DNA of 64,000 bases from Methylobacter sp. (GTDB lineage Bacteria; Pseudomonadota; Gammaproteobacteria; Methylococcales; Methylomonadaceae). A program made the translations under genes and the position numbers. Shown here piece by piece: positions 3,222-22,934 of this stretch. Each line of letters opens with the position of its first letter. Position 1 is the stretch's first letter. The notes under the pieces are model-generated. The model had not been told where the DNA came from and did no database searches. It saw only the letters and a list, made by a program, of their open reading frames with translations. The DNA is taken from the NCBI GenBank assembly GCA_024636505.1, contig JAGXGY010000023.1, forward strand, positions 1-64,000. Direction: 5' to 3'.

Positions 3222-4436
3222 TTAGGGCTTTGTTGCCATAGCTTTTGAAAGGTTGCGGGCTATTGCCTCAATCAGGCCGTGAATATCTTCGGCAGACAGA
3301 TGCACGGTTAAGGTGAAACGGATGCCCGATTTACGCTGCGATACTGCCGGGTAAACAGCATGGTTAGTGTAAAAACCATCATTAAGCAGGTATTTGGCCA
3401 TTTCACCGGCAACCTCGGGATGTCCCAATTTGACATAAAAAATTGGCGACTTCGAACTGTTTGTGACGGGTATCTGGTAGGATCTGAGCAGATGATTGCA
3501 AAAAGCAATGCGATCTTGCAGTTCTCGTTGCAGGCGATTAATTTCGGGCGACAGGTGGATACGCGCCGAGGCAATAGCCGCACCCAGCATGGGGGGCTGT
3601 ATAGGGCCTGAAAAAATCATCGGCCCGCCGCAGTTTTTAACCTGTCGATGCATCTTTTCATTGGGGAAAATAAGCGCCCCGCCTCCCGCCGCGTAAGCTT
3701 TGCACAGAGAAGTCGCCACCACCATCCGTTCTTGAATCGGCAGGCAATCCAGAACATAACCGCAGCCATGGTTGCCTGTCCAACTCATGCCGTGAGCGTC
3801 ATCAAAATACAGATGCAGCTGTTCGTAACGGTTTACCAGTTTGCCTAATTCTTTAACCGGGGCCAGATCGCCAAACATGCTGTAAACGCCATCGGTCAGA
3901 TACCAGATATGGCGATACTGCTTGCTCAGGGCGTTGATCCGTTCCTCAAGCAATTCCAGGTTACCGTGAACCAGCGTTTCGACCGGAACGCCTTCAGTCT
4001 GCACCAGTTTGGCCGCTGTTTGGAGGCTGTTGTGAGCCATCTGGTCGATGAGTATTGCATCCCCTTTTTTAATGAGCACCGGCAAGGCGGCGATATGCCC
4101 TAATGTCGTGGTTGGGGTCGCCAGTACATGAGCGTCGAATAATTCGTCAAGCAGCTGTTCCAGTTCAGTATAAGGCGTTGCCGACATATAGGCTCTCGAT
4201 ATGGCGAATTGGGTGCCGTATCGAGTCGCGGCATCAATCGTTGCTTGCTTGAGTCGGGGATCCAGTTCCAATCCCAGGTAACTGCACAAGGAAAAGTTCA
4301 GCACATGCCTGCCGTTTAAACAGATAGTGCGTCCGTTGAAAGCCTCATCTTCTGTGGTACGTTGCACCAATTTATGCCTTAAGCCCATATCGACTATGCT
4401 GTCAATAGAGCTTGTCCAGTCTGATTGAGGATTCAT
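3222..4436 (-). CDS. PLP-dependent alpha-oxoamine synthase-type aminotransferase (class I/II; BioF/Kbl-like)
   Basis: LNFSLCSYLGLELDPRLKQA, YFDDAHGMSWTGNHGCG, ATSLCKAYAAGGG. Confidence 0.8.
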   Translation of the reverse strand: MNPQSDWTSSIDSIVDMGLRHKLVQRTTEDEAFNGRTICLNGRHVLNFSLCSYLGLELDPRLKQATIDAATRYGTQFAISRAYMSATPYTELEQLLDELFDAHVLATPTTTLGHIAALPVLIKKGDAILIDQMAHNSLQTAAKLVQTEGVPVETLVHGNLELLEERINALSKQYRHIWYLTDGVYSMFGDLAPVKELGKLVNRYEQLHLYFDDAHGMSWTGNHGCGYVLDCLPIQERMVVATSLCKAYAAGGGALIFPNEKMHRQVKNCGGPMIFSGPIQPPMLGAAIASARIHLSPEINRLQRELQDRIAFCNHLLRSYQIPVTNSSKSPIFYVKLGHPEVAGEMAKYLLNDGFYTNHAVYPAVSQRKSGIRFTLTVHLSAEDIHGLIEAIARNLSKAMATKP

Positions 4437-4742: not shown

Positions 4743-5264
4743 ATGAATCGTACCATTTTATTTACGGTATTACTGGCCTTGAGTGCTTTTGCACTGACGG
4801 GTTGCGAACAGCAGAAAAAAACGGCAAAAACAACTCAAGCCGCAGTAAAAAAATATGTCAGGGCGACTGTTTTAGAGGGCGTAGTCAGTAATGACAGCGG
4901 TGTGATTAACACCGGCACAGTGGAAGTCATCGATGAAAACGGTCGTTTAATTAACCAAGTGACTGTGGACAAGGGTCATTACCGTATCGAAGTTCCAGCC
5001 AATACGGTTTTACCGATATTGTTGAGGTTTTCATCGGAGTTGGGCACGGAGACCTTGGTCACTGCAGTGATTCATGACACCATTACCCAGTATGAGATTA
5101 ACCCGTTAACGACGGCGATTGCCAAAGCGGCAAAAGCGATGGGGGGATATACGCATGCCAATATGATTCGTGCAGCGGATAGTTCCGTACATGCTCCCGA
5201 TGCCAACAAAACCACAACGGGCTGGCGCGGTGATCCGAGCATGCAATATGGCGGTTGGCACTGA
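4743..5264 (+). CDS. Putative lipoprotein
   Basis: MNRTILFTVLLALSAFALTGCEQ; lipobox LTGC. Confidence 0.65.
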   Translation: MNRTILFTVLLALSAFALTGCEQQKKTAKTTQAAVKKYVRATVLEGVVSNDSGVINTGTVEVIDENGRLINQVTVDKGHYRIEVPANTVLPILLRFSSELGTETLVTAVIHDTITQYEINPLTTAIAKAAKAMGGYTHANMIRAADSSVHAPDANKTTTGWRGDPSMQYGGWH

Positions 5265-9828: not shown

Positions 9829-10815
9829 TTACCGACGCCCAAACTGGAGCCTGGGAATCAGCGAAAAAAATTGACGGAATAGATAGACTCTCGGCAGGTA
9901 GACGAGGCTTAACATCAGCAATGCCAGCAACGCCGGTTGCCGGCGAATATCGGTCTGCACAATTTTTTCAGTCGCCAGTTTCGGGTTTTTTAATGCCCGA
10001 CTCAGGTTTTTTAAGTCGGTTAAGCGGGCGTAAGCCAAGCCGGATTCCGCGCCCAGTTTTTCTAAATAGGTTTCCTGTAAAGCGCTTAAATGCTCGTTGC
10101 CGGTGGCGGCTTCGCTGCCGAACGGGGCGTTGCGCGCGTTGTAGCCTTTCATTTGCGACGGGTCTAAATTGGATTGTCCGAATGAAGAACGGTGCGGCAC
10201 ATCGTCATGGCTATAAAACCCGGTTTGCTTGCCTTGACTGTCGAACTTGGGGATAGGCACGGCCTGTAAGCCGCCGACGCCGATAATCATGCCTTTTGCC
10301 TGTCCCTTTATCGTGGAAAAATCGGTCTGGTAATTGGGATTCACCGGCGGGGCTTCCTGGCCGTCGGTAATGAAGATCACCGAACTGTCGCTTTTTTTCA
10401 GCATGTCCAGCGTGCTCAGCAAGCCTTTGGCAATATTGCTGTCTGCGGCCCAGGCCATGCGCCAGTCGATTTTGCTGATCGCTGTGTCTATTTCCGTGTA
10501 CGCCGAACAAACTTCCAGTGGCTCGAATAACAAGGTTGAGCGCCTTTCGGTGAACAGGCCGAGGCCGACTTTGGACTCGCAAGGCAGGTCTCGTAACAGT
10601 TCGCGCAGGGTTTGCTTGACAAAATGCAGGCGGCTGACGGCCTGCTTGTCTTGTTGGTAGTCGGTCGCATTCATGCTGCGAGTAATGTCGATAATGAAGG
10701 TGTAGTTGTAAGTTGGTGATTTTTGTTGCTTGCTGGGATACAGAAACAGCACCAGCATGGCGATAAGCGCCGCCAGCAAGCACCCGATTCGATAATCTTT
10801 TAATAGTTTGCTCAT
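9829..10815 (-). CDS. mxaL: MxaL, VWA-domain methanol dehydrogenase accessory protein
   Basis: TFIIDITRSMNATDYQ...FITDGQEAPP; order C-K-L. Confidence 0.85.
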   Translation of the reverse strand: MSKLLKDYRIGCLLAALIAMLVLFLYPSKQQKSPTYNYTFIIDITRSMNATDYQQDKQAVSRLHFVKQTLRELLRDLPCESKVGLGLFTERRSTLLFEPLEVCSAYTEIDTAISKIDWRMAWAADSNIAKGLLSTLDMLKKSDSSVIFITDGQEAPPVNPNYQTDFSTIKGQAKGMIIGVGGLQAVPIPKFDSQGKQTGFYSHDDVPHRSSFGQSNLDPSQMKGYNARNAPFGSEAATGNEHLSALQETYLEKLGAESGLAYARLTDLKNLSRALKNPKLATEKIVQTDIRRQPALLALLMLSLVYLPRVYLFRQFFSLIPRLQFGRR

Positions 10816-10844
10816 TGCTTTCCTCGTTCCCATGCAATTTCTAG

Positions 10845-10932: not shown

Positions 10933-11493
10933 TTAAGGCAAACTACGCGGAAAACCCGGCACTGTCGTCCACAACTGCGATTTTTGGTTCTTAGGTTCGT
11001 CGTCCGGCATGTCGACCCTGTCCATTTCCGGTAACAAGCGCATGGCGACTTCAAGGTTATATTTGGCATCCCAATTGCCGCTGTCCAATGCCAAGGCTTG
11101 CCGGTAGGCCTGTTTTGCCAATCCGGCCAAAGGCATGGCTTCATTGATATTTATGGCTTTTGCCTGCTGCACGGCTTGTTCCAGATACAAGTTGCCGAGG
11201 TTGTAGCGGGCTTTGGCCTGGAAGTTCCGGTCGCCTTTATCCATAATCAGGCTCAGGGTCGATAAGGCCTCGTCGTAGTGGTGTTTTTCCTTGAAATAAA
11301 AAGCCCGCGCCAGTCGTAATTCCGGTTCGCCACTAATCACTTTATTAACGGCCACATCCTTGCCCGAAATCAATTGCCGGATTAAATTATTGTCGTGATG
11401 AATGCCGTACAACGCGCCAGCGCTGTAAACGAAAGCCGCCAAGCTGAGCGCCAACGCGGCCCACAGCGTAAAATGCCTGATTGTTCTTATCAT
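10933..11493 (-). CDS. mxaK: MxaK, TPR-containing methanol dehydrogenase accessory protein
   Basis: N-terminal TM then ARYNLGNLYLEQAV...KQAYRQALALDSGNWDAKYNLEVA; between mxaC and mxaL. Confidence 0.82.
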   Translation of the reverse strand: MIRTIRHFTLWAALALSLAAFVYSAGALYGIHHDNNLIRQLISGKDVAVNKVISGEPELRLARAFYFKEKHHYDEALSTLSLIMDKGDRNFQAKARYNLGNLYLEQAVQQAKAININEAMPLAGLAKQAYRQALALDSGNWDAKYNLEVAMRLLPEMDRVDMPDDEPKNQKSQLWTTVPGFPRSLP

Positions 11494-12470
11494 CGTTTGA
11501 CCTCGCAAAATTTAACGCCGAATAGAACCAGCAGCAGGAAGGCCGCTACGCTGTAGCAGGCTGCCGACAAATCCTCTTTGGGGATGCGTTCGACATAGTG
11601 CATGGGCAGGTTTTCCAGCTGGTTGATGTCGGCAATCGCCTGTTTTAACGCATCCGGGCTTTCGGCTTCATAAGCCTGATAGGGACTGCCCAGCCCCAGA
11701 AAAAACTTGTGTAGATACAGTTCAGGCATGGCCCCAGCGTTGTCGTCGCGGCTGTCTTCAGGCTGATCGAAAATGCCGGGACTGCCTGCGGTGCGCAGAA
11801 AAATCCAGTACAGACGGATTTGTTGTTGTTTAAACCAAAGCCGCAGTTTTTGTTCGCTGTCGTGATCGATTGCCGCCGCGCCGTCCGAAACCAGCAGTAC
11901 GATACGCGAGCCGGTGACAGGTTGTTGTTCAAAAAACGAGATGGCCATCCCTAAGCCTTTGCTGACATGGGTAAAGCCCAGTGCCGGTGTCGCGGTCGCC
12001 GCAATCGCAGCAGTCACCGCGTTTTTATTTTCGGTCAGCGGCATCACGAATAGCGGCGAAGTGCTGAATTCCGCGAACCCGATCAAATCGTTTTGCCGCT
12101 GTTTGACAAAATCGGTTAATAAGCGCCGCGCCGCTGTGGACTTGGATTCATCGGAGCCGTTCGGCGCGTGCCCGGCAAAGGTGTTATCCATGCTGCTGCT
12201 GCGATCGAGCAGTAACACGATATGCGCGCCGTGGCCGATCCGCTTCCGGCTTTGTTCGGTGCGATGCAGACCCGCGATGCCCAGCACTAATCCGGCAATG
12301 GCCGCGACGGCGCATAGCCGCAAACAGCAGACGACAAAAGCCGACAGCGCGTCGCCGGGTATCAATGCCGTCCACGAGGCGGGGCTGGTACGCATACCGC
12401 TATTGAACAGCGGCAACAGGGCTAGCAGCAGGCCGGTCAAAGCCCACGGAGTATTAACCGCCCAATTCAT
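11490..12470 (-). CDS. mxaC: MxaC, VWA-domain methanol dehydrogenase accessory protein
   Basis: HIVLLLDRSSSMDNTF (MIDAS), TM helices at both ends. Confidence 0.85.
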   Translation of the reverse strand: MNWAVNTPWALTGLLLALLPLFNSGMRTSPASWTALIPGDALSAFVVCCLRLCAVAAIAGLVLGIAGLHRTEQSRKRIGHGAHIVLLLDRSSSMDNTFAGHAPNGSDESKSTAARRLLTDFVKQRQNDLIGFAEFSTSPLFVMPLTENKNAVTAAIAATATPALGFTHVSKGLGMAISFFEQQPVTGSRIVLLVSDGAAAIDHDSEQKLRLWFKQQQIRLYWIFLRTAGSPGIFDQPEDSRDDNAGAMPELYLHKFFLGLGSPYQAYEAESPDALKQAIADINQLENLPMHYVERIPKEDLSAACYSVAAFLLLVLFGVKFCEVKR

Positions 12471-12705
12471 CGGCTACCCCGTTCGATTTTGCGGCATTGC
12501 TCGCAGAGGTCTTTTAGCTGTTGCAAATCCTGCGCGACAACAATCATGCCGTCGGAAAAAAAGTAACGATTGGAGTAGGTGAAGAACCAAAGCAATTGGG
12601 CGTTTATTTGCAGATATTCCGGGTTGCGTCGGTAAAATTCGCCCAGCCGATTAAGGAACAGCGGCTGACCATTCAGGCTGTTCAGGCGTGATGGACAATG
12701 TTATA
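12467..12705 (-). pseudogene. mxaA: MxaA C-terminal remnant
   Basis: Reverse-strand frame ...LNSLNGQPLFLNRLGEFYRRNPEYLQINAQLLWFFTYSNRYFFSDGMIVVAQDLQQLKDLCEQCRKIERGSR*, overlapping the mxaC start (ATGA) as expected for mxaA. No N-terminal part present. Confidence 0.7.
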
Positions 12706-13350
12706 GGCGGTGGCGTAGCCTCTGACGCCTAATTCAGCGCCCGAGCTGCCGACAATGACTTTGTCCTTAGCCACAAAAGGTGCGACGGTCAGCGTAGAAC
12801 CCATCGCAATGTCGGAGTTTTCCATTTTCCACAACAACTCGCCGGTCTTCGCGTTTAACGCCACGATATGGCCGTCCAGTTGATTCTGGAAAATAGTCGC
12901 AGGATAACCCTCACCGGCAGGCGCATAAGCTAAGCCCCGATTGACCTCGTCGCAACAAGCTACGGCGCGGGCAGCCGGATTTTGTTTGGGTTTGTGTTCC
13001 CATAAAATCTTGCCCGGCTCATCCAGATCAATAGCAAAAATATTGTTAGGGTAGGGTGTATGCACGTACATAATTCCGTCAATAACCAGCGGTCCGCCTT
13101 CATGTCCGTTCAGTACGCCCGTAGAAAACGACCAGACCGGCTGTAGATGCTGAACGTTGTGGGTGTTAATCTGGGTCATTTCGCTAAAGTGGCTGGCATC
13201 GTAGTCTTTAGTCTGCATGGCCCAGTTAGTGTCCTCTTTCGACAGTCTGTCCAGGGCTTTGTTGGCCTGTGCCGGTATCGAAACCGATAATAAGGCACCG
13301 CTACAAACAGCTGACGCGACAGCGGTGCGGGTGAATTTGGAAATCCGCAT
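12682..13350 (-). pseudogene. mxaF: MxaF (PQQ methanol dehydrogenase large subunit), N-terminal fragment of ~218 aa
   Basis: Signal peptide, then NTHNVQHLQPVWSFSTGVLNGHEGGPLVIDGIMYVHTPYPNNIFAIDLDEPGKILWEHKPKQNPAARAVACCDEVNRGLAYAPAGEG...GSSGAELGVRGYATAYNI, then stops after VHHA*. Confidence 0.9.
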
Positions 13351-13675
13351 GGTTCCTCCAGGGGTTATAATTGTTATGCTTATGAGGCTATAAAGTCAGC
13401 CCGTGCGTATCAATAAAGGTGAAGTAAGTAACCCGCTTTCTTGATCAAAACGTTTGCAATGCTTCATTGAGCGGCAGGGCTGAACAGGTGCTCATGGTAC
13501 GGGAGCGCTTACTGACAGTGTTACGGAATAAGCCAGGAAATCGGCGGGAAAAATCCCGGAATAAACCAAGAAAACTTCCTGTGCCGTTGGGCGGGATAAA
13601 ACGGGGAAAGCTCCTATCGATTTGCCGTTTATAAACAGGCATGATGACTGTTTTGACGCGTTAAGGAGTAAAGTA

Positions 13676-14338
13676 GTGGCGGGTAAAATTAGTGTGTTAT
13701 TGGTCGATGATCATGCCGTGGTTCGGACGGGTTATAAAGCCTATCTTTCCTTATCCGATAAAATCGGACAGATTTATGAGGCGGATCGGGGCGAGGCCGC
13801 GTGTCAAATGTACAATCAACATCAACCCGATATTGTGGTGACGGATTTGTCGATGCCGGGTATAGGCGGTTTTGAGAGCATCAGACGGCTGCTCAACCGC
13901 GATCCGCACTGTAAAATCCTGGTATTCAGCATTCATAATGAACTGGTCTATGTGACGCGGGCGCTTGCGGCCGGAGCCAAGGGCTATATCACTAAAAGCA
14001 GCGTGCCTGAAACGCTGATTACTGCAGTGCATAAAATCGCCCAAGGCGGGACTTATGTCGATCCTGAAATTGCCCAGAAACTGGCCGTTTCTATAGCCGG
14101 CGGGCAGGATGAGTCGGAAAAATTAAAACTGCTTTCGCCCAGGGAGTTCGATGTGTTCTGTTTGTTGGCGAATGGCTACATGGCCCGAAAAGCTGCGGAA
14201 AAACTGTGTTTGAGTTATAAAACGGTATGCAACCACGGTACCGTGATCAAGGAAAAAATAGGCGCCAAAACGCTGGCTGAGTTGACCTTGCTGGCGAGCC
14301 AGCAAGGTCTTATTGAAGCGCATGAAAATTATAGTTAA
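13676..14338 (+). CDS. mxaB: NarL/LuxR-type response regulator, probably MxaB
   Basis: VLLVDDHAVVRTGYKAYL...LSPREFDVFCLLANGYMARKAAEKLCLSYKTVCNH; divergent from mxaF; GTG start with AGGAG upstream. Confidence 0.7.
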   Translation: MAGKISVLLVDDHAVVRTGYKAYLSLSDKIGQIYEADRGEAACQMYNQHQPDIVVTDLSMPGIGGFESIRRLLNRDPHCKILVFSIHNELVYVTRALAAGAKGYITKSSVPETLITAVHKIAQGGTYVDPEIAQKLAVSIAGGQDESEKLKLLSPREFDVFCLLANGYMARKAAEKLCLSYKTVCNHGTVIKEKIGAKTLAELTLLASQQGLIEAHENYS

Positions 14339-14380: not shown

Positions 14381-14911
14381 TTATTTTTCCAGCTGTTGTT
14401 TTAGTCCTGCCAAACCGTTCTTAAAAAATGTATTCATCGCTTTAACCGCCGCTTCGTCATTCAATTTTTCGGGCGGCGTATTGCCGGTATCGCCGCGATA
14501 GAAACGGCTTTTTAGGGTAATCATGCTGGTGCCGCTATCATTCCCCGCTGTTACCTGAAGGTTGGTGGTGTACGAGCTGGCCGGAAATGCCGTTACATTT
14601 TCGGTTTTAAGCCGGTAATTGTATTCATGATCTTGGTCGCTGTAATAATCCAGGCTTTCCACTAGTTGCCCGTCATTTTGCAGGGTAAGGGTTCTAATAC
14701 CGTCAGAAGCGTTTTTTCCATCACCTGAACTGGCTTTGACATCGGGATGCCAGCTTGCAATGGCATCGAATTGCTTGACTGCATTCCAGACTGCGTCGAC
14801 AGGGGCATTAATGATGACGCTTTCTTTGGCTTTTTGTGGAGTTGGTCCGTGAGCAAGAGAGGTAACGGGGAACAATAGGAAACTCAATAATAGTAAGGGT
14901 AAACGGTTCAT
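14381..14911 (-). CDS. mxaD: MxaD-like periplasmic SRPBCC protein
   Basis: Signal peptide plus VIINAPVDAVWNAVKQFDAIASWHPDVKAS; linked to mxa genes. Confidence 0.72.
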   Translation of the reverse strand: MNRLPLLLLSFLLFPVTSLAHGPTPQKAKESVIINAPVDAVWNAVKQFDAIASWHPDVKASSGDGKNASDGIRTLTLQNDGQLVESLDYYSDQDHEYNYRLKTENVTAFPASSYTTNLQVTAGNDSGTSMITLKSRFYRGDTGNTPPEKLNDEAAVKAMNTFFKNGLAGLKQQLEK

Positions 14912-15244: not shown

Positions 15245-15320
15245 TCCCCTGTAGCTCAGTCGGTAGAGCGGATGACTGTTAATCATTAGGTCGGCGGTTC
15301 GAGCCCGTCCGGGGGAGCCA
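15245..15320 (+). tRNA. tRNA-Asn (anticodon GTT)
   Basis: TCCCCTG...GATGACTGTTAATCATT...GGTTCGAGCC...CGGGGGA G CCA. Confidence 0.96.
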
Positions 15321-15496
15321 AGTAAATCAAAGCCTTACATGCAAATGTAGGGCTTTTTTTATGCCTGAAATTCCCCCACGTTGCACTCACGTTGCAATTG
15401 AAAATAAAAAGCCATAAAACACACGCAACACTTGCCAGTATTTCAGGCAAAAAAAAGGCCGGAATAATCCAGCCCTTAAATTGATTTCTTAATCCA

Positions 15497-15679
15497 TCAT
15501 TCAATGGTTTGTTCTTCGGCTCTGGTAAAAGTGACCGTTTTAATGCCCTGCCGGTTAAGCTCCGCTATTTCTGCGGCTTGCTCCGGTGTGCCGTCATGTC
15601 GGAAGAACTGCATCGGTTTTGCCAGCTTTGGGGCGGCCAGGGCTTCAAGCTGTACCAGTCGGGCTTTAAGGTTAGCCAT
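15497..15679 (-). CDS. Small element protein, paralog 1
   Basis: MANLKARLVQLEALAAPKLAKPMQFFRHDGTPEQAAEIAELNRQGIKTVTFTRAEEQTIE; start overlaps the upstream stop (TAATG). Confidence 0.7.
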   Translation of the reverse strand: MANLKARLVQLEALAAPKLAKPMQFFRHDGTPEQAAEIAELNRQGIKTVTFTRAEEQTIE

Positions 15680-15846
15680 TACTCAACCACTCTAAAAAGT
15701 CGAAGCTTCCCGCCCTGCTGCTCGATCATGGCGATTTCTTCGGCTTGTTCGTCTGTGCCGTCCAATACAAAATGCCGGACAGGTAAAAACTTTTTAATCT
15801 TTCGCGCCATTGCTTCAAGTGCAGCCAGTCTGTTCTTTAAGCTCAT
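15679..15846 (-). CDS. Small element protein, paralog 2 (absent from the ORF track)
   Basis: MSLKNRLAALEAMARKIKKFLPVRHFVLDGTDEQAEEIAMIEQQGGKLRLFRVVE; overlaps neighbours by ATGA and TAATG. Confidence 0.7.
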   Translation of the reverse strand: MSLKNRLAALEAMARKIKKFLPVRHFVLDGTDEQAEEIAMIEQQGGKLRLFRVVE

Positions 15847-16067
15847 AATTTATCACTCCATACCACACCATCTGCGCCAACCAACCAAACGCCAAGCGTA
15901 TCGCCTAGTGTTTGAAATATATAAACCTCTCGCCTGTCCAGGTGCGCCTCGGTCATTAGCTCCCATTGCTCCGGCGTTGGTTCGCCATTGACCTCGATAG
16001 TGAACCACGGCTTTTCAGGGTTCGCTATGATTTCCAATGCCATTAACCGGCTTTTTAAGCTGCTCAT
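15843..16067 (-). CDS. Small element protein, paralog 3
   Basis: MSSLKSRLMALEIIANPEKPWFTIEVNGEPTPEQWELMTEAHLDRREVYIFQTLG...; ATGA overlaps on both sides. Confidence 0.7.
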   Translation of the reverse strand: MSSLKSRLMALEIIANPEKPWFTIEVNGEPTPEQWELMTEAHLDRREVYIFQTLGDTLGVWLVGADGVVWSDKL

Positions 16068-16462
16068 TTTCTGCCCAACTCTAATTCTTCGATTCTTCGA
16101 GTCAGTTCATCAATTTCTATAATCTTGGACTGTGCCGCCAATGCCGTTATTAACTGGCTACCAATATCAGGCGGTATCTGTCCGGCCATTGTTGCCCGGA
16201 TAATTTCGCCGCCCTGTTCAGCCAATGAACCATTAACAGGCAGGCATATCGGCTGTGCTTGGGGTTTGAGCGTTGGGCATACCCTATCAAGCAAACACTT
16301 TGCCGCTGCCACATCGCCAGCTTTGGCCTGTTCAATCATACTTAAGATTATTTCCGGCATCGCTTCGGCAATGGATTTTCTTAAAAGGGTAGCCGGTGTT
16401 TTATCCTTTGGCCGTCCTTTTGGATTGCCTGATACTCCCGGTTTAAATTTTGGTCTGGTCAT
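16064..16462 (-). CDS. DUF5681-type phage-associated protein
   Basis: N-terminal KFKPGVSGNPKGRPKDK motif. Confidence 0.75.
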   Translation of the reverse strand: MTRPKFKPGVSGNPKGRPKDKTPATLLRKSIAEAMPEIILSMIEQAKAGDVAAAKCLLDRVCPTLKPQAQPICLPVNGSLAEQGGEIIRATMAGQIPPDIGSQLITALAAQSKIIEIDELTRRIEELELGRK

Positions 16463-16615
16463 GTTGTTTAATTCCTGTTGTTATCAGCTTAATTAATGTT
16501 TTTGGTGAAATTGCCCTTACCCCGCACCTACAAAACCTACAAAAGGGTTATATTTAAGTACCCCCTGAAATGAAAGGGGGTTTTGTAGGTTCTGTAGGCT
16601 TGGGGTAGGCGTGTT

Positions 16616-18796
16616 TTAGAGAAAAAAAGGGTTAATTGAATATTCCGGTAAAGGTGGCCGCCCGGTAGGTGGTTTTGGTTTTCTCTGCATCATCAGCCAG
16701 CTTTCTTCTATCAGAACATTACAGGCCGCTTCCACCTCCTGTTTTTCATTCAAGCCGTGCCAGCCCTTTTGCTGCACAATCCTGCTGTTAAACGGGTTAG
16801 GTAAAGCCCCTGCTTTTATCTTATCCGCCAGTCTTACCGCCGCTTCATGCTCTGGACTCTCAGCCATTGCATAAATACGCCTAGCGTGTGATTCCAGATA
16901 AACACACCACTCAACCGCCAGCATTGCCGCCTGTGCGGTGACATTACCCTGCGCCTTGCCGTCTGCAATGTCGATACAGTGGAATATCAAGGCCAATGAA
17001 GGCATCAATGAACGGAACTTCCCGAAGTGTTCAACCATCAAGGGGTTAGTTTCCTGTTGAATCTTGACGGTTTGCAAGTCCGTCAGCCATTCATTAAAAA
17101 CCGCCTGTCCAGCATCATCAAAACGAAAGTAGGGCCGGTCGTCATATTCAGATTGAACCGCACCGCATCCGATAAAATCCAGTTCAGCCAATGCCTTCAT
17201 AATATCGAAAGCTCGCCGCTTCTCTGCCTTATTCGGTATTGTGTCAATCAATCGCCAGCGTTCCGGCTCATCAGGCCACACGGCAAGCTGTAAGCGTTGC
17301 ATCAGGCCGTCATTACTTCCATTCTGCGCTTGATACAGATACCGCCGTAACTTGTCCGGCTGTATGCCACCTAATAGACTGATACAAATATTAGGTGCTT
17401 CGGTAAGGCCTCTACCAATCTTAAAATCTGTATAGCTGCCATTACCGTTCCAGCCTTCCAGAAAATAGGCGCGTTCGTCTGCTCCGTCCTCTCTGTCCCA
17501 TTTAACCAATAAGGCGGTTAATTCATCCCTGAATGTCAAAAGGCCGCGCGGGTTCTGGTTCTGTAAAACCGTCATGCTTTGCACGCTGGTTTCATTGGTT
17601 TTGAATAGTCGCCGGGTGGCTTCGGGTTCGGCGTTCTCTGATAACTCCATGTAATCAGCTTTTAACTTCTGCAAGTCATCACCTTTGACTACGCAATCTT
17701 TGCCCTTACCCTTGGCCGCCTTGGATAACTGCCCTTTTACATCATCAATCATGGCTTTGTTTGCCAGCATATCGAACTCAGCCCCGGCTTTGTCCTGCTC
17801 GTACTGTTCGCCATATTCAGCTTGCAGGCGTTCAAGTAGGCTCATTGGCTCTTTCATGCTGGGGGATTTCAGTACAACCGAAGGCCGCCCGATAGCCGCA
17901 CCCCATACATTCGGTATGATTTCCCAGTCATCCAAGCGTTTAGGCCTGATACTGCACCCCGCGCCAATGATAGAACCCACAATAACAAGGCTCGATATTG
18001 CTGCAAAGTCTGGGGGTGTCTGCATCCGGTGGCTAACATCAGCCAGCCAATGCCGGAACGGTTCGGGTATCAGTTCAGATTGTAATGCTTGAACGGGTGG
18101 CGTTTTGGTTTCAATTTCTCTCGGTTTTTCCCACAAATCGCCATACCCCGCACTGACAGAACCGACAAAACCCCATCCTTCCGGTATAGGCTCGGCGTTT
18201 TTCAGCTCTGCCCGTAGTTCCTCCCTTAATGCTTCATGCACATTTTCAGCAATCGGCGCGTAACCACCCCAATCATTAATGAAGGATTGCACCCAGTCCA
18301 CCACATCGCCTTTATATGGTAATCCAGACAACCGCAACACTTTAACCTGTGGCGGTTCTGGTAGTGCCATCAATGCCCCGTAAACATCTTTTATATAATG
18401 CTCGCCCGGCTCGTCTGCATCCGGTAACAGGTACACCAGCTTATAACCGTTTAAAGGTGTCCAGTCAGCCTGTTTTGCCGCTTGTGAGCCTCCAAGGCTG
18501 CTAACGGCTGCAATACCTACACTCTGCAAGGCCGCCGCACTCTTTTCGCCCTCTACGATAAAAACAGCTTTGTCCTTTGGATGTGCTGCCAGCTTATCAA
18601 GTCCAAATAAAGGCCGTGGGTTTAACTCGATACCAGCCGCCCAGGTTGCGCCGTTGCGTTTAAAGAATGGGACAACATCCTTTTTGCCTTCTTCATCCTG
18701 ATACCGGCCAACAACCCCGAAGGGTGCGCCATCCATAGCGCAATAGTTCCAAGCATGAATTAATGGTTTGCCGTTGTAACTCTTTGGGATGTTCAT
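16616..18796 (-). CDS. TOPRIM-containing primase/helicase-like protein (DUF3987-type)
   Basis: AVFIVEGEKSAAALQS...YLLPDADEPGEHY TOPRIM signatures; C-terminal SLLGGIQPDKL...GLMQRLQLAVWPD. Confidence 0.75.
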   Translation of the reverse strand: MNIPKSYNGKPLIHAWNYCAMDGAPFGVVGRYQDEEGKKDVVPFFKRNGATWAAGIELNPRPLFGLDKLAAHPKDKAVFIVEGEKSAAALQSVGIAAVSSLGGSQAAKQADWTPLNGYKLVYLLPDADEPGEHYIKDVYGALMALPEPPQVKVLRLSGLPYKGDVVDWVQSFINDWGGYAPIAENVHEALREELRAELKNAEPIPEGWGFVGSVSAGYGDLWEKPREIETKTPPVQALQSELIPEPFRHWLADVSHRMQTPPDFAAISSLVIVGSIIGAGCSIRPKRLDDWEIIPNVWGAAIGRPSVVLKSPSMKEPMSLLERLQAEYGEQYEQDKAGAEFDMLANKAMIDDVKGQLSKAAKGKGKDCVVKGDDLQKLKADYMELSENAEPEATRRLFKTNETSVQSMTVLQNQNPRGLLTFRDELTALLVKWDREDGADERAYFLEGWNGNGSYTDFKIGRGLTEAPNICISLLGGIQPDKLRRYLYQAQNGSNDGLMQRLQLAVWPDEPERWRLIDTIPNKAEKRRAFDIMKALAELDFIGCGAVQSEYDDRPYFRFDDAGQAVFNEWLTDLQTVKIQQETNPLMVEHFGKFRSLMPSLALIFHCIDIADGKAQGNVTAQAAMLAVEWCVYLESHARRIYAMAESPEHEAAVRLADKIKAGALPNPFNSRIVQQKGWHGLNEKQEVEAACNVLIEESWLMMQRKPKPPTGRPPLPEYSINPFFL

Positions 18797-18999
18797 ATAA
18801 GCAACTCCCCGTCAATTTCCCAGCCGTTACCTGTAAACGATTCGGCAATAGTTACCGTTTGCTTAGTTCCTGCATGGTTCGTTATTGTTAGGGTTAAGCT
18901 TAAAAGCTCGTCATCCTCTGCAATAACTCCTTTTTCACTCAAATCATCTGATAACAACTCGGCCAATATTCTTAATCTGATACTCATATTAACCCCCAA
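18793..18999 (-). CDS. Hypothetical element protein
   Basis: Tight overlaps with both neighbours. Confidence 0.5.
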   Translation of the reverse strand: MGVNMSIRLRILAELLSDDLSEKGVIAEDDELLSLTLTITNHAGTKQTVTIAESFTGNGWEIDGELLI

Positions 19000-19283
19000 T
19001 CATCAGCCAGCTTTGCCAGTGCTTCGACAAATTCAAGCCCGTACACGGCCATAGTGAAGGCGATAACATCACCGCCAGCAATCCCACAAGAAAAGCATTT
19101 AAACGCGCCTGTCGTCAGATTTACACGGAAAGAACCGGGCTTATTGTCTGCATGGAAGCAACACAAGCCGCCGTCATTCCAGCTATGCTTTTTGAGCGTT
19201 GCGCCGGGTAGTTCATGCCGGTAAAAGTCAAACGGTAAAAGTGAGCGTTTGATATAATCAGCATTCAGTTTTTTGTTAAACAT
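18984..19283 (-). CDS. CHC2 zinc-finger primase-domain protein
   Basis: CCFHADNKPGSFRVNLTTGAFKCFSCGIAGGDVIAFTMAVYGLEFVEAL. Confidence 0.85.
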   Translation of the reverse strand: MFNKKLNADYIKRSLLPFDFYRHELPGATLKKHSWNDGGLCCFHADNKPGSFRVNLTTGAFKCFSCGIAGGDVIAFTMAVYGLEFVEALAKLADDWGLI

Positions 19284-19515
19284 TATCGCCCCCTAAGTTC
19301 GCTGCTTGGGGGTTCCCCTTCAAATACGCTGGGTTAATCCACGGTGTATAGCCTGTAAACTCAAGTCGAACACTCCGCCGGTATTGTCTAAGAATTGCCA
19401 GCTTGTTGATTGCGTCCGTGTAGTCAAGTTCTTGGCTCAACACAACATCCCCGGCTTTACCTTTGGCAACCACTACAAACAGCTCTACTGGTTCGAAGTC
19501 ATCAAGGTTAATCAT
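19276..19515 (-). CDS. Hypothetical element protein
   Basis: Overlaps neighbours in the operon. Confidence 0.5.
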   Translation of the reverse strand: MINLDDFEPVELFVVVAKGKAGDVVLSQELDYTDAINKLAILRQYRRSVRLEFTGYTPWINPAYLKGNPQAANLGGDNV

Positions 19516-19928
19516 GCTGCCACCTTCGCCGCTGCCATTGCTTCAAATTCATCAACCGCTTTGCAAAACGCCTTAATCCGGTAGGCCAATTCCGGCGTAA
19601 ACTCTGCATAGAGTTCGTAGCGGGTAAAGATAAAAACACGATGCACAACATCCTTTGTTATTGCTGCCTCATCGTGATTAACAATCACCCACCCTTTATC
19701 CCTCAACTTGTCGATATAGCCGCCTAAACGATAGCTATGGGATGCAAAATCAAATTCTCGGTGTGACAGCATCACGCCAGCCGGTAACAGCCGTCTTAAT
19801 GCCCTAGATTGAAGGCTTCCGATTCTTGGGAATATCACATTGTCAGAATCTAACAGGGGCTTGGTGTCCTTGTAATCGGCGCGTGCAATACGGCGGCGGT
19901 TGTCTCTTATAACTTTTGAAGTAATCAT
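19512..19928 (-). CDS. Hypothetical element protein
   Basis: ORF with ATGA overlap to downstream gene. Confidence 0.55.
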   Translation of the reverse strand: MITSKVIRDNRRRIARADYKDTKPLLDSDNVIFPRIGSLQSRALRRLLPAGVMLSHREFDFASHSYRLGGYIDKLRDKGWVIVNHDEAAITKDVVHRVFIFTRYELYAEFTPELAYRIKAFCKAVDEFEAMAAAKVAA

Positions 19929-20143
19929 TACGCCACCGCCTTATTTTGAGCTGATACCCAATTAAAGAACTTGGTTTCATCTATAAGAACCTTACGGCCA
20001 ATGCGAACAATTGCGCCGGACTTAGCAAGTCCGTTGGTGTGTTCGTTGAAGATAAGGGAACGAAGGCCGCCCGTATTAAAGGCGGTATGCTTGGCTGTGA
20101 ATTGTTGGACTGTTAGATAAGCCCATGCTGTTTGTGTTGTCAT
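19928..20143 (-). CDS. AlpA/excisionase-like DNA-binding protein
   Basis: Small protein: LTVQQFTAKHTAFNTGGLRSLIFN...GAIVRIGRKVLIDETKFFNWV (MerR-like wHTH). Confidence 0.65.
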   Translation of the reverse strand: MTTQTAWAYLTVQQFTAKHTAFNTGGLRSLIFNEHTNGLAKSGAIVRIGRKVLIDETKFFNWVSAQNKAVA

Positions 20144-20249
20144 TTGTTATGTCTCATAGTTGCGTCCGGTGCGTTATTGCTCCGGCTCGATTAAAACTAT
20201 AAGCTATTGATTTTCATTAAAAAATACTGTGAATGCTGTCAATTTTTAC

Positions 20250-20345
20250 ACTCGCACCATTCGCACCATTCGCAAGGCTCTATAAATATGACACGCACAA
20301 AAAAGGCGACATTAAGCCGCCTTGTTAAATTCGCACCATTCACAC
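20250..20345. repeat. Iteron-like repeats upstream of the alpA-primase operon
   Basis: ACTCGCACCATTCGCACCATTCGCA at 20250-20274 and ATTCGCACCATTCACAC at 20329-20345, bracketing hairpin AAGGCGacattaaGCCGCCTT. Confidence 0.6.
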
Positions 20346-20347
20346 TA

Positions 20348-21067
20348 TTATGGCTTTTTAGACTTTCCCCCTTGGTTTCTTTTAAACTGCCATACGCTTT
20401 CGCCATTATCCATAATCCACCTGTCAGCTCCATTTGCCCATATATACTTATCCGTTTGCGGTGTAATGTTCGCCAGCTCTATTTTTATTTCTTCATTTGT
20501 TAAACGATTGAGTTCTTGAATAATGAGTTCACGGTTATTTTCGTGTTTATCACATAGGGCTACATACCATTCGGTAAGTATATTCATTCTCTTTTGGTTC
20601 TTTCCTTCTGGCTTCGTATCTGTTTCTGCATGACCAATCGCACCATCGGCTTCGGTGGCCAGCATCAGAATCGGTGTAATTTGAATTGATGGGTTAAGGT
20701 GGTCTGTGTTGTAACCTTTACTTTGTGCCCATGTTAACCAGTTTGTAGGTGTGTCAGTTTCTTTTAAAATGCCAATAGCAATTGCAGACTTGGCAAGCGT
20801 TAAAATCCTGTTCATTATTGTTATTAAAGCGTGCGCTCTATCTCGGCCAGTAGAGCCATCAGGGCAATGTTTGAGCCCGTACTCTATGGCTTCTTTTGTG
20901 TTTTCGTTAAATCCAAGCACAATCATTTTGCAGGCGCGCTCAATATCCCATGAATCCATTTGCAAGGCCACATCATCAGCGAACGTTCCAGAACTTACCA
21001 TCTGATAATTTTCATCGTGGTCAAGCCTTAGCCGTCCTTTGTCATCAATCCAAGTTTTACCCATCAC
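20348..21067 (-). CDS. Hypothetical element protein translationally overlapping integrase
   Basis: 239-aa ORF; start overlaps the integrase stop. Confidence 0.6.
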   Translation of the reverse strand: MMGKTWIDDKGRLRLDHDENYQMVSSGTFADDVALQMDSWDIERACKMIVLGFNENTKEAIEYGLKHCPDGSTGRDRAHALITIMNRILTLAKSAIAIGILKETDTPTNWLTWAQSKGYNTDHLNPSIQITPILMLATEADGAIGHAETDTKPEGKNQKRMNILTEWYVALCDKHENNRELIIQELNRLTNEEIKIELANITPQTDKYIWANGADRWIMDNGESVWQFKRNQGGKSKKP

Positions 21068-22131
21068 ACGCCCCCAAATATCTTGGCGTTCATGCTCTCA
21101 ATCACGCTGGACACATGACCATCTGATAAATGCGCGTAACGCTTAACCATGCTTAACGTCTTATGCCCTAGTATCTCGGCAATCTCAGCCAGTGACGCGC
21201 CATTCATAGCCAAATAAGACGCGGTGCAATGTCTCAAGTCGTGCCATGTAAAATCGGTTATCTCAGCAACCCTAAGCGCACTTGCAAAGGCTTTACGTAA
21301 ATCAATTGGCTTTTGTGGGTTTCTGTCGCTTGGGAATAATAGCGTAGTATCAAGCCGTCGAACCTTTGCATGTTCTTGTAACAGTGATAAGGCCAAACCG
21401 GATAAAGGAACGCGCCGCCTGTCCCCGTTCTTGGTTTCGTGCAGAATTAAAAAACCATCCTTAAGGTTTACATCCCTCCAATTTAGCCCCATCAGTTCGC
21501 CTTGTCTCATGCCGCTGGACAATGCCACAATCACACATGGATAAAGCAAAGGGTTTGGTGATTCTTTACAGGCTTGCAATAATTTTGCTCGGTCGTCATC
21601 ATCAAGATAGCGAACGCGCCCCCTTGACTCAGTTGGCTTTTTTACCTTCCGCATCGGTGAATCTTCGAGCCATTGCCATTCATTCACCGCCACACTGAAA
21701 GCATGGGATAAAGCCGCCAAATATCGAACTACCGTGGCCGGGTTTCTATGTTCACCGCGTGTAGTTGCGCCGCTTGCTAGTTCGTCCCGGTATTGCCCAA
21801 CCATAGCCGCTGTTACGTCTGAAAGAAGATAAGCCCCCATCTTGTCCTTCCACCATTCGAGCTGCTGCTTTTGTTGCCGGGCTTGTTTTGGCTTTGTTGG
21901 TAAAATGTCCTTGATGTACCTATCGGCCAAATCTGCAAAGGTGTGTTTTTTTGCTTCTGCTGTTTTGAAGTGTCGCCCCTCTCTTATTGCGCTTTCGGTA
22001 TCTTGCACCCACTTTTTTGCATCAGTGAGCCGGTTAAAGGTGGCCGTTTGTGCTGGATAACCTTTTAAGCGAATTTGCGCGGTGTAATAAGGCTTGTTGT
22101 CTGCGGTTTGTCTTTTGGTGATGGTCGCCAT
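21064..22131 (-). CDS. Tyrosine site-specific integrase
   Basis: SSGMRQGELMGLNW, HDLRHCTASYLAMNG, LGHKTLSMVKRYAHL catalytic motifs; abuts attR. Confidence 0.95.
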   Translation of the reverse strand: MATITKRQTADNKPYYTAQIRLKGYPAQTATFNRLTDAKKWVQDTESAIREGRHFKTAEAKKHTFADLADRYIKDILPTKPKQARQQKQQLEWWKDKMGAYLLSDVTAAMVGQYRDELASGATTRGEHRNPATVVRYLAALSHAFSVAVNEWQWLEDSPMRKVKKPTESRGRVRYLDDDDRAKLLQACKESPNPLLYPCVIVALSSGMRQGELMGLNWRDVNLKDGFLILHETKNGDRRRVPLSGLALSLLQEHAKVRRLDTTLLFPSDRNPQKPIDLRKAFASALRVAEITDFTWHDLRHCTASYLAMNGASLAEIAEILGHKTLSMVKRYAHLSDGHVSSVIESMNAKIFGGV

Positions 22132-22934
22132 GATTGCCCTCTATGGGATAGCAACCGGCTTTCTGATATGATGCTTTAGCCATTGCTTAACCCTGCTTGT
22201 TAAGTATCGGTAAGGCCTTGTTGGTGCTGATACACCCTCAAGGCCGCTTTGTTTCTAGGGTTTCATTATACACTCACGTTGCACTCACGTTGCAATTGAG
22301 TATAAAAAAGGGCAATAAATGGCAATAATGGACAACAAGACAAAACAGTTAAGTTATTGAATTATTTATTATTGTTTGTTGCCGGTTGTTGTTGATTATT
22401 GGATTAATAGGACTGTTAATCATTAGGTCGGCGGTTCGAGCCCGTCCGGGGGAGCCAAGTAAATCAAGGGCTTAGAGTTAAATCTAAGCCCTTTTTTTTG
22501 CCTGTTGATTTTACGCGGTCACTTTGTATATCAAAGGCTCGCTCGTCGATCATAAAACGCATCAATATCTTTTTACCCCACCGCAACCGCCTTTCCATTG
22601 CCGCTTTCGGGACATCGCCACGCAAACGCATTTTCGTCATTATTCAGATCCCCTTCCGTTAATCCGATGAAATTAAGTGACCACGACCCGCTATAACTAA
22701 CTGAAGAAGCATTACTGGATCGCTAGTCGAGGTTCAGAGCTGCTAAACACAGTCCGCGTCTTCGGCGAGCAAACACTTTGGCTACTGAATACACTAATTA
22801 AGGCGGTGTATGCGTTTCGGGAAAGGTAGCCAGATCAGGTGCTATCGATGACTTATAAAGGTATTACCTAATTGAACGGCTTGCTAAAACGGGCGAACTG
22901 TAACCAAGTATTGTATTATTCCAGCTTTATCAAA

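Follow-up and report, generated by a model that had tools for sequence, protein, structure and literature searches.

The methanol dehydrogenase operon of a Methylobacter genome contains a junction at which the start of mxaF runs directly into the end of mxaA. In our view this is probably the trace of a single, recent microhomology deletion of about 6 kb in this lineage, one that would leave methanol oxidation to XoxF and orphan mxaB, mxaC, mxaK, mxaL and mxaD. If true, the locus captures a recent halfway stage in the switch, made repeatedly by methanotrophs, from calcium and lanthanide methanol dehydrogenases to the lanthanide enzyme alone, and loss of the calcium enzyme can start with one deletion in mid-operon. 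It would also be a warning—surveys of gene presence could mistake incomplete mxa genes for a Ca-dependent route.

The window discussed here is the whole stretch of DNA analysed, 64,000 nucleotides at the start of contig C44; its genome is a draft of 2.83 Mb in 69 contigs, 86.7% complete. The window matches Methylobacter from the M. tundripaludum group most closely.

The junction and its surroundings

The features of the mxa locus in the window are as follows.

9829..10833, minus strand: mxaL, intact, with a VWA domain (open along its whole length; Pfam domain)
10933..11490, minus strand: mxaK, intact (open over the full length seen in relatives)
11490..12470, minus strand: mxaC, intact, with a VWA domain (91% identity over 326/326 aa; Pfam VWA_2)
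12467..12696, minus strand: mxaA remnant, the last 230 bp (about 76 codons plus stop), one base short of the mxaF frame (alignment to L006 and to mxaA of relatives)
12693..12700, minus strand: junction of the putative deletion, with 2-4 bp common to both sides
12697..13350, minus strand: codons 1-218 of mxaF, a remnant that covers the signal peptide and the beginning of the PQQ beta-propeller (match to positions 1-179 of the 595 in the Pfam PQQ profile PF01011)
13622..14338, plus strand: mxaB, response regulator of the mxa operon, intact (REC and LuxR domains; 81-89% DNA identity to relatives)
14381..14911, minus strand: mxaD, intact (Pfam PF10604; 81-91% DNA identity to relatives)

The original prediction, made from the letters of the DNA, was of an mxaF N-terminus fused to an mxaA C-terminus, and alignments to both genes of L006 (Methylobacter sp. 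C3_concoct.bin.75, genome G015; order mxaF-J-G-I-R-S-A-C-K) bear this out. Read on the minus strand, codons 1-218 of mxaF (13350-12697) join directly to the last 230 bp of mxaA (12696-12467), placing the join at 12697/12696. The open reading frame at 12682-13350(-) is the MxaF N-terminus: over codons 1-218 it shares 91% DNA and 96% protein identity with the intact mxaF of L006 in a gapless pairwise alignment, beyond which similarity breaks off abruptly. The mxaA match begins at the first base past the mxaF part, at about residue 216 of 291, and ends at the mxaA stop at 12467; as in L006, this stop and the start of mxaC (12470) overlap.

The bases common to both sides of the join are CATT in the best-matching relatives (G009 and G020) and TT in others. 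Across the join the window reads TAT-AAC-ATT-GTC-CAT-CAC-GCC-TGA; at this site mxaF of relatives reads TAT-AAC-ATT-AAA, and mxaA of G009 reads ACC-ATT-GTC-CAT-CAC-GCC-TTG-AAC. The mxaA part had been described as one base out of frame. The frame does end at VHHA*, four codons past the join, but the fusion itself is in frame; the offset comes from one T missing 13 bases downstream (GCCTTGAAC in most relatives, GCCTGAAC in the window), and it is through this missing T that the fused frame closes. With that single base kept, the frame would have encoded an MxaF(1-218)-MxaA(C-terminal) fusion protein. The window encodes 218 of the 604 residues of MxaF, then a stop, and not the full-length protein of a functional MxaFI operon.

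The mxaFJGIRSACKL operons of Methylobacter, as in L006 and M. tundripaludum SV96 (L016), have the same gene order and the same flanking mxaB and mxaD, and the window matches them at 87-91% DNA identity on each side of the join. In contrast to these operons, it lacks the 5.7-7.5 kb that begins at mxaF codon 219 and stops shortly before mxaA ends (5,683-7,542 bp between the two join points in the eight complete-operon relatives measured). The 3' part of mxaF, mxaJ, G, I, R and S, and the 5' part of mxaA are thus absent, and mxaB and mxaD upstream of the junction and mxaC, mxaK and mxaL after it remain, both as originally proposed; each of the five is open along its whole length. The mxaC here is the sole copy in the genome, and the genes of the locus stand in standard order.

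Recombination between repeats was considered as the cause and rejected: the join has just its 2-4 bp in common, and the intact L006 operon has its dispersed repeats elsewhere (query positions about 3616-3733 and 4757-4832 in the search of the window's own genome). These sequences, at about 11616-11733 (the mxaI/mxaR gap) and 12757-12832 (the mxaR/mxaS boundary) of L006, are short, recur widely in the window's genome and resemble dispersed palindromic repeats. Single-strand folding at the join is unremarkable (z = -1.3), giving no sign of a hairpin there.

Beside mxaD lies a 7.1 kb integrative element in tRNA-Asn (15274-22504), with the 3' part of the tRNA gene present as an exact direct repeat of 57 bases at 15274 and 22411. 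Its translations, read by eye, include a primase-like protein (726 aa, 16616-18796(-)) and an integrase-like frame (21064-22131(-)). The element resembles a phage satellite or something similar.

Gene content for methanol oxidation

Searched at the DNA level with the L006 operon, the genome matched the two flanks at this locus; within the missing span the sole matches were the xoxF paralogue and dispersed short repeats, and the missing ~6 kb is not on other contigs. Protein searches of the same 86.7%-complete assembly returned one truncated MxaF plus XoxF for MxaF, a sole MxaJ-like protein that is XoxJ (34%), and no match for MxaG, for which a positive control was run. The assembly holds no DNA matching MxaI, MxaG or MxaJ, all parts of a functional MxaFI operon, and no second intact mxa operon, the presence of which would have spoken against the original prediction.

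On contig C60, xoxF is an intact frame of 618 aa carrying RDAD, in XoxF the catalytic Asp and, two residues on, the extra lanthanide-ligand Asp. The gene is followed by xoxJ; on its other side (L126 11010-13006) stands a pair of genes for a histidine kinase and a LuxR-type response regulator, which may have a connection with the MxaY/MxaB lanthanide switch. The genome also holds pmoA and pqqC, so that methane monooxygenase, PQQ synthesis and a XoxF with its lanthanide-ligand Asp intact are all present, as in a XoxF-only methanotroph. The search located no xoxG; its query was MxaG, which is too distant to detect that gene. With no intact mxaF, mxaJ or mxaG and with intact xoxF, xoxJ, pmoA and pqqC, methanol oxidation would have to rest on XoxF, subject to the 86.7% completeness. 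This gene content supports what had been proposed, namely the loss of the Ca-dependent methanol dehydrogenase and dependence on a XoxF-type enzyme, and it fits the idea of orphaned maturation genes.

Relatives and the age of the probable loss

Comparison with related Methylococcales, in a genus sample of 23 genomes and a family sample of 206, finds intact operons in the closest relatives and a XoxF-only state in others. Three or four of the 23 genus genomes have no full MxaF. XoxF is present and MxaF, MxaJ and MxaC are absent in G004 (100% complete), G017 (99%) and G006 (81%); an MxaF-type match is also absent from G008, which is fragmented and 89% complete. In G005, mxaF seems to be missing only because its contigs end at that place. 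About 97 of the 206 family genomes (a hand count) have a full-strength MxaF match, and the rest have XoxF only, fragments or nothing, partly owing to incompleteness. The junction itself was seen in no other of the 23 genus genomes.

In the xoxF tree the window's genome is sister to G010 plus G020 (support 100) and groups with these and G011 (support 100), all three of which have complete mxaF. As the sister genomes have intact operons, the loss lies on the window genome's own branch. G004 and G006 sit elsewhere in this tree, and G017 branches close to its base; if xoxF follows the species, this would mean at least three losses of the operon in the genus.

The XoxF-only outcome is already known, common and published; the scar is less common. 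Genomes of the OWC lineage of Methylobacter yielded no mxaF, even with unbinned contigs included (PMC6222125), and they, like G004, G006 and G017, resemble the window in having xoxF and no usable mxaF. The window differs from the latter three in keeping the scar and intact mxaC, K, L, D and B, whereas in those genomes MxaC is gone and other mxa DNA was not found among 13 first-look candidates scored per genome, a DNA search in which absence of mxaD, B, K and L is weaker than that of MxaF, MxaJ and MxaC. Most of 97 surveyed Methylobacter genomes have both enzymes (PMC12810054). Outside the genus, the part of PMC8788690 considered here gives XoxF as the sole methanol dehydrogenase of Methyloprofundus INp10 and endosymbionts, and cites Vekeman 2016 for XoxF5-only methanotrophs of the North Sea. 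According to the same part, Methyloprofundus is like the window in having xoxJ adjacent to xoxF, xoxG not beside it, and MxaB/MxaY-like genes kept; unlike for the window, no deletion scar is described there.

Mean pairwise dN/dS, for the window against relatives and for relatives among themselves, is 0.057 and 0.057 for mxaF, 0.121 and 0.113 for mxaC, 0.133 and 0.145 for mxaK, 0.163 and 0.156 for mxaL, 0.161 and 0.142 for mxaD, and 0.105 and 0.084 for mxaB. Decay of the remnant genes is ruled out by these relative-like values, which extend even to the dead mxaF fragment. The window and G020 differ by 8-15% of DNA in these genes; with dN/dS still like that of functional genes, most of this divergence therefore arose while the operon worked. 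The remaining genes are open and evolve no faster than in functional relatives, so the loss is recent or polymorphic or, with lower probability, a product of the assembly.

Weighing the explanations

In the explanation that we favour, one microhomology-mediated deletion of roughly 6 kb would have taken the 3' two thirds of mxaF, mxaJ, G, I, R and S, and most of mxaA, and a 1-bp loss 13 bases past the join would have closed the fused frame. The join would be present in the living genome; the MxaFI enzyme and its cytochrome cL would no longer be made, and a single XoxF, with PQQ and a lanthanide, would carry the flux of methanol from methane. The five orphans would be undecayed because the loss is recent, and their dN/dS is as expected on that account. 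The 2-4 bp overlap fits end-joining or slippage at microhomology. The scar looks real, and the loss is probably recent.

What counts against a fixed deletion is that undecayed remnants, the dead mxaF fragment included, are equally expected if the join is chimeric or belongs to a minority strain, that the draft is 86.7% complete, and that the genus holds no independent copy of the junction. There is a small chance that the deletion is real in some cells while much of the population keeps the operon and the assembler gave one variant; the source was probably a mixed community, but other contigs carry no intact or partial second mxaF, mxaJ or mxaG. It is unlikely that a chimeric read or gap filling joined two parts of an intact operon. 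Draft multi-contig assemblies do break here (the mxaB and mxaJ contigs of G005 both end at or beside mxaF), and the single-base difference so near the join may point to a fault in the reads or the assembly at that spot. Against such an artefact, the shared 2-4 bp are far below any assembly k-mer, making a de Bruijn join by a shared word improbable; the join lies well inside the contig and has no N run, and the missing 6 kb appears on no other contig.

We think it quite improbable that selection maintains mxaC, K, L, D and B for a role beyond MxaFI maturation, for example in lanthanide or XoxF handling, the operon being trimmed and not abandoned. The XoxF-only state is viable in the genus, as G004, G017 and G006 attest, and there MxaC went along with MxaF and MxaJ, which argues that mxaC is of no use once MxaFI is gone and will decay. 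That the locus is a broken second copy, with an intact operon in the missing 13% of the genome, is highly improbable: the completeness leaves room for it, but all 16 of the genus members with full-length MxaF hold exactly one, and mxaC here is single and its neighbours are in standard order.

Elsewhere in the family, a single-contig genome (G100; L163 6603-8409) has an otherwise complete mxa operon in which a frameshift near codon 176 splits mxaF—possibly another early loss, or a sequencing error. In G019 and G005 (L140 and L142), about 0.6 kb or less separates xoxF from mxaD, so that the loci of the two methanol dehydrogenases adjoin in some species and are separate in others.
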